64,000 nucleotides of DNA, taken from the IMG/VR virus record IMGVR_UViG_3300034198_015460, positions 17,136 through 81,135 of that record; one strand, written 5' to 3'. Shown piece after piece: positions 16,832 through 57,248 of this stretch. A program made the position numbers and the translations under genes. Every line of letters begins with the position of its first letter. Position 1 is the stretch's first letter. The DNA is from a virus. The notes beneath the pieces were generated by a model that was not told the origin of the DNA, did no database searches, and worked only from the letters and a program-made list of their open reading frames with translations.

Positions 16832-17431
16832 TTATCCTCCTATATCTTTTTGAGGAGGATTATATCCGGTCACTATTTTCATTCTTCCTATTTTTTGCTG
16901 TTCTGGATCTTTTGAGCCATACGGTATATGAGTAATCATATCAGAAGTTAATGGTTGAGCGAAACCATTAGAGTGTAAACCATGCACTCTCATTTCTGGA
17001 TCACTCATCATTCTATTTAAAGATTTTTGCATGCCTTCGGAATTTTTAGTCCATTCTATAGACGCATTATGAGTTCTTGAAATAGATTTAATAACATCAT
17101 TCATTCTAACAGGAGAACTTTTTCTGCCCTGCGTGGTTGGAAATTGATATGTTATTGATTTATCAGGATTATTTATTTGACCAGCAAATCTAACAGTATG
17201 ATGTATTTTCTTATCTTCTGGATTATATGTGAAATAAGAAGCTCCGCTTCCTGGGGAAGAAGAATGGTATAAATGTAAACCGCCTACTTCTCCAATTTTG
17301 TTAGCGTTTTTATCAAATTTATTTGGATCGTCATAAGTTATAGGTTTTGTGTCGCTGACAATTGGATCTCTTTTTGTTTGAGATATATCGGCGGACCAAG
17401 CTTCTTTTATGTATTTTTTAAATGTCAGCAT
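16832..17431 (-). CDS. Unrecognised protein between endonuclease and gp14
   Basis: A 199-residue hydrophilic protein beginning MLTFKKYIKEAW, a short N-terminal amphipathic segment that recurs at the start of several head-associated proteins in T4-like phages. The central region contains GGLHLYHSSSPGSGASYFTY and later RMMSDPEMRVHG. No catalytic motif is clear. The last codons (GGA GGA) encode the ribosome binding site used by gp14. The first 14 nt overlap the end of the endonuclease gene. It could be a minor head protein or a phage-specific accessory gene brought in near the endonuclease. Confidence 0.75.
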   Translation of the reverse strand: MLTFKKYIKEAWSADISQTKRDPIVSDTKPITYDDPNKFDKNANKIGEVGGLHLYHSSSPGSGASYFTYNPEDKKIHHTVRFAGQINNPDKSITYQFPTTQGRKSSPVRMNDVIKSISRTHNASIEWTKNSEGMQKSLNRMMSDPEMRVHGLHSNGFAQPLTSDMITHIPYGSKDPEQQKIGRMKIVTGYNPPQKDIGG

Positions 17432-31686: not shown

Positions 31687-34600
31687 TTAAATCTGCAAAC
31701 AAATTGCTCTCACATCATTTAGTCTTGGAACTTTAGCGGCATTAGATGAAAGAAGAACAATCTTCAGAGCAACTTCTTTATAACCAATAAATCTAGAATT
31801 GGCACTGTTTCTATATTCAACAATACCGTCATTCCCCGGAGATGAAAACACATAGTAAATAGCGGCTGAATTTGAAGCAGTTAAGTCGCTCATACCTTTA
31901 TCAACAGTCAAAGAAGTATCACTTGCAATATTTGTTATTGTTCTTATTGCTGTATAGTTAGAAGAAACTATTTTAATAGTGTCTCCGACAACAAAATTAG
32001 TTTTGAATGCTGTTCCAGTTCCAGTAATAGTTTGAGATGTATTGGCAATACTAATTGTTCCTGCCAAAGCATTATATGTGTCAACACCTGTATTTGCAAA
32101 AGCTCCCTGTGCAACAGAATTGCTTGAAGGCATATTAAATTCATATTCAATAAAATCATTCACATCAGTTGGTGAGCTATATTTTGTATCACTATCGTTA
32201 CTGTATTCCAGAACAGACCATACTTTATCATCAAATGATTCGGCGTCTTCTTCGTTTCTAAATTTAGCATAAACCTTAATATCAGTGTCGCCGGGTCTAT
32301 ATGCTGTCATATAAACTTTTAAGTCTTCTGCTTCTTGACCGTCAGCTAAAACCACTCTTTTACTAATATATTTTGAATATGAATTACCATATTTTGTATG
32401 TTCATTTGTAACACTGTTATTAATAATATTTTGAATATACAAAGAAGCTTTTCTTGTCAAAGACACAACAGGAGATACATAATCAGATTCAGTTGAAAGA
32501 GTAATCTGATATCTTGATGATTTTCCTGTTTGATTTGATTTACTAAGAACTCTTCTTTCTTTGTCTAAGAATTCATATTCATAACCATTAGTGACAGTAA
32601 TATAACTGGCGTCGTCAATTAATGTTGCTGATGTTGAGGTTCCTTTATAACCAAAGGAAAGAGATGTTCTTGCTGGTTGAAGAGAACCAAAATTTGGAGC
32701 AACAGCATGATATGTCAGATTATCAACTGTTTGAATTGTGCCATATGCAATCTTATTTGCATCAGTTAGCAATCCTGTATTAGTTGGATCAGAAACTCTG
32801 AATATAGCGAAATATGGATTAATTGCAGTTCCTGCTGTATTAGAAAAACCACCAGTAGAAGAATCTAGGTAAATTTTACCATTTACTTCATCAAAGAATT
32901 GAACTCTACCATAATAACTTGTATTTGCTGAATTTAGTGTTCCATTCGCATAAACATTTGCGCTATAAAGCATATCACCAACTTCAATAGTAACTGAGCT
33001 ATTTGCTTTATTGAGAGATGTTACACTTAGATAATCATCATTTTCATTTTCAAAAATAGCTGTTCCTGATGTTGATGAGAATTTAGCTCTATAGATATTG
33101 AATTTCAAATCTTCTTTTTGTATAGCTGTCCAAGTTTTTCTATTCGCTGAAATGAATAAAACACCAGAATAAGGATTTGAAAACACTTGTTCATTTGTAA
33201 CAACATCAAATCCACCAGTTTCTCCAACCCAAACATTGTAATTAGGAGAATTGCCATCTGGTTGAATAACAACAGCATAATCTGTGCTAGTTAACAAATA
33301 TACAGGATAATCTAGTGTGAATACAGTCTCAGTAGCAGCAGTCGCGCTTGTATTAATAGAAGATGCTGCTAGATATGATTTACCAATTATTTTTGATGCA
33401 TCAGGGAAACCATTATTCATTTCAACAATGAAAACAGAGCAACCAAGAGAACTGTCTTTTGATTGGAAATAAACACCAATTTGTTTGATGAATACACCAG
33501 AAATATCAGAAGGAAGATTTTCAATTCTAAATGATTGAGAAATTGGATCGTCAGGATTCCAAGCTGGTGCTGGTGGTGGAATTGTTCTGGTTTCTACGTA
33601 ACTTTCATGTTTCACTGTTGGATTAGTGACATTTATAGATGTAGAGCCTTTAGTTACAGAAATATTAGAAGCACTGTAAATAGCCAAGGCTTTTGTAGTT
33701 ACTGCTGAAACACCAGTAGTTAAATTATCAACATTCACAAGTTGAAAATTTCTATCGCCAACTCTGAAAGAAGAAGCGGGAATTTTGAATACACCGCAAA
33801 TAAATCCATTTGAATCAGAAACTAGTGCATCACCAAAGTTTCCTTTTTGTGTTACAATTGAATCTTCTTTACCAAATTCTGGATTTGTTGTTCCTGAAAG
33901 AATGCCAGGAGCACAATAAGCATCTACATTAGTATCGTCAAAGAAAGCATGAAGTGTAGTGTTTGGTTTTAAATTATATGCGACAAATGAAACCAATCTA
34001 GAACGCATATATGGTTGAACAGAAATATCTTGTACGTAACTACCTGTATCTATTTTTTGAGATAGCGTATCAAGAGAAATAGTTGTTACTGTTCTTTCTT
34101 GTGTAGATGAACTTGTTGTTGTTCTATTGCGATTTCTAATACTTGTTCCAGAGAATGGTTCAATATTTCCATTTCTATCAACGTGTTGTGTTGTTGAACT
34201 TGGGCCAACTGTTCTCCATTCACCATAATTAGTGCCCCATGTAATATTTGAGAAGTCTTCCCATGGTGCAGACAAATCTAGATTTACGTTAATATTAGGA
34301 GTAACAGTTTCATCTTTAAAATAATCTTCTCTTGGATAAAGGTCAATTAGACCATTCCATTGCCAGACAGACTCGCATGCATTTCTGTATTTTGTTGCAA
34401 ATCTTTGAGAAATGTATAATTCAGAACTATTGTTTAACATGACAACAGAACCATAATTATTAACACCAGAAGATGTTGTATTAGAGAAAGTCAGATCAAC
34501 ATTGTGTTTTTTGAAATATGATCTTGCAACTGTTGCTATTGGATCAATGGCAATTTTATACTCAAAATCGGTAACATCACCCAAGTTATGAGAATTAAAT

Positions 34601-56852: not shown

Positions 56853-56946
56853 TGGTACCCCCACTCGGATTCGAACCAAGACCGCGCTCCAATCTAGAGC
56901 ATACCACGGTTATAAGCCGTGCGTTCTACCATTAAACTATGAGGGC
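56853..56946 (-). tRNA. tRNA with UAU anticodon and long variable arm (94 nt)
   Basis: A full cloverleaf with encoded CCA. The acceptor stem pairs GCCCTCA with TGGGGGT, the D stem GTTT with GAAC, the anticodon stem CACGG with CCGTG around CTTATAA, and the T arm CTTGG-TTCGAAT-CCGAG. The discriminator is A. The loop gives anticodon UAU, nominally Ile reading AUA. The variable region is 24 nt with its own GCTC/GAGC hairpin, which is the class II form of Leu, Ser and Tyr tRNAs. The loop differs by one base from the CTTAAAA of Leu-UAA tRNAs. Confidence 0.85.
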
Positions 56947-57171: not shown

Positions 57172-57248
57172 TGGCGATCCCTGAAGGATTCGAACCTTCA
57201 ACCTACAGCTTAGAAGGCTGTTGCTCTGTCCGATTGAGCTAAGGGACC
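57172..57248 (-). tRNA. tRNA-Arg (UCU)
   Basis: A 77-nt cloverleaf with acceptor GGTCCCT/AGGGATC, a D arm TAGCTCAATCGGACAGAGC, anticodon loop CTTCTAA (anticodon UCU, reads AGA), T arm with TTCGAAT, discriminator G and encoded CCA. AGA is common in AT-rich phage genes and often rare in hosts, so this tRNA may support phage translation. Confidence 0.95.

Follow-up and report, generated by a model that had tools for sequence, protein, structure and literature searches.

We describe a phage tRNA with two tandem anticodon arms, found in a 64,000-nucleotide stretch of DNA (hereafter the window; positions 17,136 to 81,135 of virus record IMGVR_UViG_3300034198_015460). We put the probability at roughly 0.55 that it is an isoleucine tRNA for AUA codons in which the first arm (arm 1) decodes and the second (arm 2), a hairpin in the variable region, supplies the identity recognized by IleRS. 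The tRNA belongs to a widespread and apparently undescribed family of viral tRNAs. Its source is an 81-kb virus record with the portal, sheath and baseplate families of a T4-like myovirus, and the nearest named portals, those of Synechococcus phage S-CREM1 and Stenotrophomonas phage DLP_6, are 57% identical.

A tRNA-Ile (tat) is called by ARAGORN on the minus strand at 56853-56946, and the same stretch scores 57.6 bits (E 8e-10) against Rfam RF00005, for which the gathering score is 29, in agreement with the cloverleaf model. These two results confirm the well-folded tRNA with anticodon UAU, A73 and an encoded CCA that a first-pass annotation had reported. The features, with an ordinary neighbouring tRNA for context, are as follows.

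56853-56946, minus strand: whole tRNA gene, anticodon UAU, 94 nt including the encoded CCA (ARAGORN and Rfam)
56940-56946, minus strand: acceptor 5' strand GCCCTCA; G1 pairs with U72 and the acceptor stem has 7 bp
56923-56937, minus strand: D arm GTTT-AATGGTA-GAAC, a normal 'type B' D arm with a 4-bp D stem
56905-56921, minus strand: arm 1, the true anticodon arm, CACGG-CTTATAA-CCGTG, with U33 and A37
56912-56914, minus strand: decoding anticodon UAU, which reads AUA (ARAGORN and layout)
56885-56901, minus strand: arm 2, the second anticodon-like hairpin, TGCTC-TAGATTG-GAGCG, in the variable region
56892-56894, minus strand: GAU at arm 2 loop positions 3-5 (equivalents of 34-36), near-invariant in the two-arm family
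56881-56884, minus strand: 3' linker CGGT from arm 2 to the T stem, its last base U as in most window-type members
56853-56880, minus strand: T arm (5-bp stem), acceptor 3' strand, A73 and CCA
57172-57248, minus strand: adjacent ordinary tRNA-Arg (UCU) (ARAGORN and Rfam)

The variable region measures 24 nt (GTA-TGCTC-TAGATTG-GAGCG-CGGT), the length first reported for it; its attribution to the Leu/Ser/Tyr kind did not hold, the arm being a hairpin that resembles an anticodon arm, with 4-5 bp and a 7-nt loop, flanked by short linkers. The 3' linker counts 4 nt if the arm 2 stem is given 5 bp and 5 nt if it is given 4 bp, and D stem and arm 1 are a single nucleotide apart, as in window-type members generally. 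A fold with a short variable arm had been named beforehand as refuting this layout, and no such fold competes in the window tRNA. With RNAfold alone the cloverleaf did not emerge (z -0.73), which often happens with tRNAs; applied to the window tRNA alone, the program showed an acceptor/T stacking extendable by U8.G65. The tRNA-Ile determinants A35, U36, A37, A38 and A73 are all present (loop CUUAUAA), and C29-G41 is formed in arm 1 (CACGG/CCGTG) as well as at the corresponding position of arm 2 (TGCTC/GAGCG). An identical copy of the tRNA lies on IMG/VR contig 3300032282_005081, which matches the window with 100% identity along 9256 bp and therefore probably stems from the same phage. This copy, together with many divergent relatives of common architecture, argues that the fold is not a chance product. 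The other end of the same virus record (G000:C1:80-853) yields six more tRNA calls (Glu, Thr, Asn, Met, Arg and Glu), among which the Arg (GCG) call looks weak.

The extent of the family was gauged by two scans of IMG/VR. The first, for UAU tRNAs whose variable region is long and of unrestricted content, matched at least 119 stretches, mostly family members, and A73 is present in every member of this set among the matches listed. The second, complete scan specified a D arm like that of the window and left the variable region unspecified; it matched 77 stretches and gave 55 unique well-folded tRNAs, all but two of them with a hairpin whose 7-nt loop reads Y-N-GAU-N-N, the exceptions (L312 and L292) having GAC in place of GAU. 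The members share descent, and such counts are therefore not counts of independent events. G1.U72 is the commonest first pair, and members frequently encode CCA and are placed in tRNA arrays covering many codons. Five cultured phages possess a two-arm tRNA (Synechococcus S-SRM01 and S-SKS1, Lactobacillus LpeD, Levilactobacillus ENFP1 and Sinorhizobium Phosso), annotated, where it is annotated at all, as plain tRNA-Ile. In S-SRM01 the two-arm member, at about 32943-33032, was missed by the published tRNA table, which begins at 33489. 'Type A' members (L013, L023, L237, L249, L414 and similar) have a compact D arm with a 4-bp stem and a UGGU loop, a single nucleotide after the acceptor stem, and neither the usual U8 nor A14; this compact D arm is possibly why tRNA finders miss some members. 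Two members, L261 and L278, keep the GAU hairpin and have a further small one (AGC-GAAA-GCT) 5' of it.

Cellular genomes and plasmids contribute little. About 85,000 species genomes gave 38 pattern hits, only 22 of them true members, and a cellular origin of the family was rejected on the basis of this number and of the many members located in tRNA arrays or on small contigs of viral appearance. A PF01171 (TilS-type) gene was found in 8/8 such species genomes tested, so the two-arm tRNA need not be the sole AUA reader there. One cellular member (L224, Pseudoxanthomonas mexicana DSM 17121) lies near DNA methyltransferase-like and helicase-like ORFs, surroundings that are possibly a mobile or defence island, and a second motif match occurs in the same genome at G001:C61:1080-1125. 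The window tRNA found no match among plasmids. A direct search of annotated phages with it returned short matches only, of its 5' half to class I tRNA-Ile and of its T arm to tRNA-Leu; the idea of a chimera of these two was given up once the family emerged.

Throughout the family the variable region forms a hairpin of 4-5 bp with the 7-nt loop Y-N-GAU-N-N, preceded by mostly 2-5 nt and followed by 4-6 nt, in most cases 5-6; this second linker resembles in length the variable loop of class I tRNAs and ends in U in window-type members. In a pool of 100 unique variable regions the loop starts with a pyrimidine in 98 and has A as its second base in 92; positions 3-5 are G in 97, A in 98 and U in 96, and the sixth is unconstrained. 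The stem is maintained by compensatory change: in a set of 52 distinct hairpins, 94.7% of cells form pairs, and a covariation score of 0.914 compares with maxima of 0.212 for slid partners and 0.201 for shuffles (0/500 shuffles reached it). The least variable pair is the third one counted from the loop, the counterpart of 29-41 (C-G in 42/52, with both sides changed in 6), and the adjoining pair 30-40 has changed on both sides in 30/52.

The hairpin is tied to one anticodon. When 2475 unique tRNAs from all fetched loci were held to a strict criterion of a GAU hairpin with a 7-nt loop, 156/212 unique UAU tRNAs passed, and other anticodons supplied one chance tRNA-Ser match and two family members whose anticodon ARAGORN had misread. 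No GAU hairpin occurred in tRNA-Leu (0/68 long-arm UAA and 0/39 long-arm UAG). A motif scan for anticodons with a base other than U at position 36 picked up UAU members by pattern slippage, and the motif turned up in no further tRNA type beyond chance; a separate scan for the anticodons CAU, GAU and AAU returned 2 stretches, neither with such a tRNA. Some UAU tRNAs do without arm 2: phages also have UAU tRNAs of the short-arm form (45 unique), in some cases on a contig that carries a two-arm one as well; among the matches listed in a UAU scan for either length, the two-arm form was found on 32 contigs and the short-arm form on 26. Contigs with both forms are L084, L111, L158, L162 and L213. 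Long-variable-arm bodies with Thr (UGU), Asn (GUU) or CAU anticodons and no GAU loop (L133, L221, L256, L326, L331 and L305) are a set distinct from the UAU family. As a separate observation, in 148/281 unique tRNA-Leu genes of phages a short, class I-like variable loop takes the place of the class II arm, for instance in the phage tRNA arrays L187, L135, L414 (2161-2233) and L415 (2571-2646).

Read as an anticodon arm, arm 2 resembles that of bacterial tRNA-Ile(GAU): it has in common with this arm G34 A35 U36, the usual tRNA-Ile anticodon, together with C29-G41, Y32, often A38 and, in most cases, C31-G39. With the triplet masked, arm 2 was scored against profiles of 35 anticodon arms, and tRNA-Ile(GAU) came first with 5.11 bits, followed by CCU (5.05 bits, from only 12 sequences) and short-arm UAU (3.74 bits). 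Profiles of the stem alone placed short-arm UAU first and GAU second, both isoleucine classes, and an isoleucine class was on top in 297/300 bootstraps. The C29-G41 pair has a frequency of 0.83 in arm 2 and of 0.60 in tRNA-Ile(GAU), the highest of the 35 anticodons, as against 0.35 in short-arm UAU tRNAs, at most 0.25 for every other anticodon and 0.25 in arm 1 of the family itself. E. coli IleRS uses this pair as a minor identity element (PMC9976931). The family gave no signal for C4-G69 as an additional IleRS element. In relatives of a Pseudoxanthomonas, a Nostoc and an acidobacterial genome, chromosomal tRNA-Ile(GAU) has the arm CACCC-CUGAUAA-GGGUG or a close variant, and most arm 2 loops read CAGAUUA, which differs from CUGAUAA in having A for U33 and U for A37.

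Both changes would be expected to harm decoding. Arm 2 has no U33 and usually no purine at position 37, which is mostly U; it should therefore decode poorly, and here it departs from the bacterial arm, as it does in lying in the variable region of a tRNA whose real anticodon is UAU. These features make it hardly tenable that arm 2 is the decoding anticodon arm, its GAU reading AUC and AUU, and that arm 1 is an insertion, even though GAU is a legitimate isoleucine anticodon and a loop of class I length follows it. Arm 1 has U33 and a purine at 37, also in those members that were retrieved through BLAST and not through an anticodon pattern, and in window-type members the single nucleotide between D stem and arm 1 also speaks against such an insertion.

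The amino acid at AUA was judged from aligned relatives of the window phage's proteins, in which the ratio Ile/(Ile+Leu) is 0.745 at AUA, 0.769 at AUU/AUC and 0.148 at Leu codons; AUA likewise behaves as isoleucine in the pooled contigs carrying the family. Since AUA aligns with isoleucine as AUU and AUC do, it is not recoded to leucine, as the first-pass annotation had expected in calling full recoding unlikely; its description of an unusual Ile tRNA was apt, UAU being set on a long-variable-arm body. Low-level mischarging may occur. Its other suggestion, that the tRNA is charged with leucine through the long arm and A73 and reads AUA as leucine, now has a very slim chance. In its favour are the long variable region, A73 and the precedent of the nematode nev-tRNA-Ile(UAU), which has a tRNA-Leu-like arm and is charged with leucine in vitro (PMC4300185, whose available text describes no GAU hairpin). 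A73, however, is common to Leu and Ile and thus not decisive, the anticodon UAU is not a Leu anticodon, and the one-base likeness of the loop CTTATAA to CTTAAAA of Leu-UAA proved uninformative. Besides the alignment of AUA with isoleucine, the variable arm is unlike the arms of tRNA-Leu and is matched best by isoleucine anticodon arms, Leu anticodon-arm profiles scoring well below these. The nematode tRNA shares with the family the anticodon UAU and an added variable arm, and differs in belonging to a eukaryotic genome and in its Leu-like arm, whereas the window is a phage record with a GAU hairpin that tRNA-Leu lacks.

A two-arm isoleucine tRNA would work as follows. Arm 1, with its normal UAU loop, would decode AUA on the ribosome without lysidine; arm 2, by mimicking the tRNA-Ile(GAU) anticodon arm with G34 A35 U36 and C29-G41, would supply in cis, on flexible linkers, IleRS determinants absent from the UAU arm. 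From these likenesses we infer that IleRS may read arm 2, which would allow or improve charging. That two-arm tRNAs occur across diverse hosts speaks for a partner common to all hosts, such as IleRS, rather than for a protein specific to the phages. The tRNA-Ile2 of E. coli is not isoleucylated as long as its C34 is unmodified; it requires lysidine or a comparable base there (PMC11938285, PMC9976931), and tRNA-Ile(UAU) replaces tRNA-Ile2 only in some bacteria, e.g. Bifidobacterium, Mycoplasma and Neorickettsia (PMC8450103).

One point that counts against arm 2 as an IleRS site is that IleRS normally also wants t6A37, which cannot be placed on most arm 2 loops, their position 37 being mostly U. 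The chief alternative, conceivable but doubtful, is that this isoleucine tRNA for AUA is charged by way of its UAU arm and A73, with the GAU hairpin serving another partner, e.g. a modification enzyme or, as a decoy, a nuclease that cuts tRNA-Ile, or else having a structural role. AUA as isoleucine in the window phage would suit it, as would the lack of U33 and mostly of R37 in arm 2, and the short-arm UAU tRNAs of phages suggest that some hosts may charge UAU without arm 2. It leaves unaccounted for, however, that the stem too copies isoleucine anticodon arms, which would be superfluous for a generic binding site, and that the motif is common to phages of cyanobacteria, lactobacilli and rhizobia, which points to a universal factor that knows the isoleucine arm.

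Several known tRNAs invite comparison with the two-arm isoleucine tRNA. A set of soil allo-tRNAs with the anticodon UAU was reportedly presented by Mukai et al. in 2017. Like the family, they combine UAU with unusual extra arms and come from soil and sediment metagenomes and an acidobacterial setting, and, compared solely through their description in a review (PMC7609411), they may overlap with it. According to the available text of that review they are 8/4 tRNAs, possibly five-stemmed and unusable in E. coli, and it does not mention a GAU hairpin; allo-tRNAs there have 8/4 or 9/3 acceptor/T stems, whereas the window tRNA and nearly all members are 7/5, with a standard 49-65 pair and A73. Their failure in E. 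coli, as reported there, counts against arm 2 as an IleRS site in so far as they are possibly related. It also lends something to the view, raised for these same allo-tRNAs of soil bacteria, that the family consists of non-translational decoy or regulatory RNAs or of decaying tRNAs, and the compact D arm of type A members, without the usual U8 and A14, goes the same way. We consider the chance of this slim, as stems, anticodon loop and A73 are intact, CCA is frequently encoded and members are sited in arrays for many codons. The isoleucine tRNAs tRNA-Ile2 (CAU, with lysidine) and tRNA-Ile3 (UAU, class I) also decode AUA as isoleucine, but have a short variable loop and a single anticodon arm, and tRNA-Ile2 depends on TilS; the window tRNA, with UAU and not a TilS-modified CAU, is not a tRNA-Ile2. 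tRNA-Sec shares the long arm and, with type A members, a four-nucleotide D loop, and differs in UCA, G73 and an 8-bp acceptor stem from the UAU, A73 and 7-bp acceptor stem of the family. Literature searches among open-access journal papers found no published description of a tRNA with a GAU hairpin.

To our knowledge, wherever the anticodon of a tRNA matters for charging, the ribosome reads that same triplet. In the two-arm tRNA, charging and decoding seem to be split between separate hairpins of one molecule, and we give about even odds to such a division, in which IleRS would read the GAU hairpin and the ribosome UAU, enabling phages of hosts from many phyla to decode AUA as isoleucine without the lysidine enzyme of the host. 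Phage tRNA annotation is incomplete, as the S-SRM01 table illustrates, and the five cultured phages offer handles for experiments. If true, this division would be a natural solution to the AUA problem, UAU being native to only some bacteria and CAU needing lysidine, and would provide a new rule for tRNA identity together with a design idea for orthogonal tRNAs.
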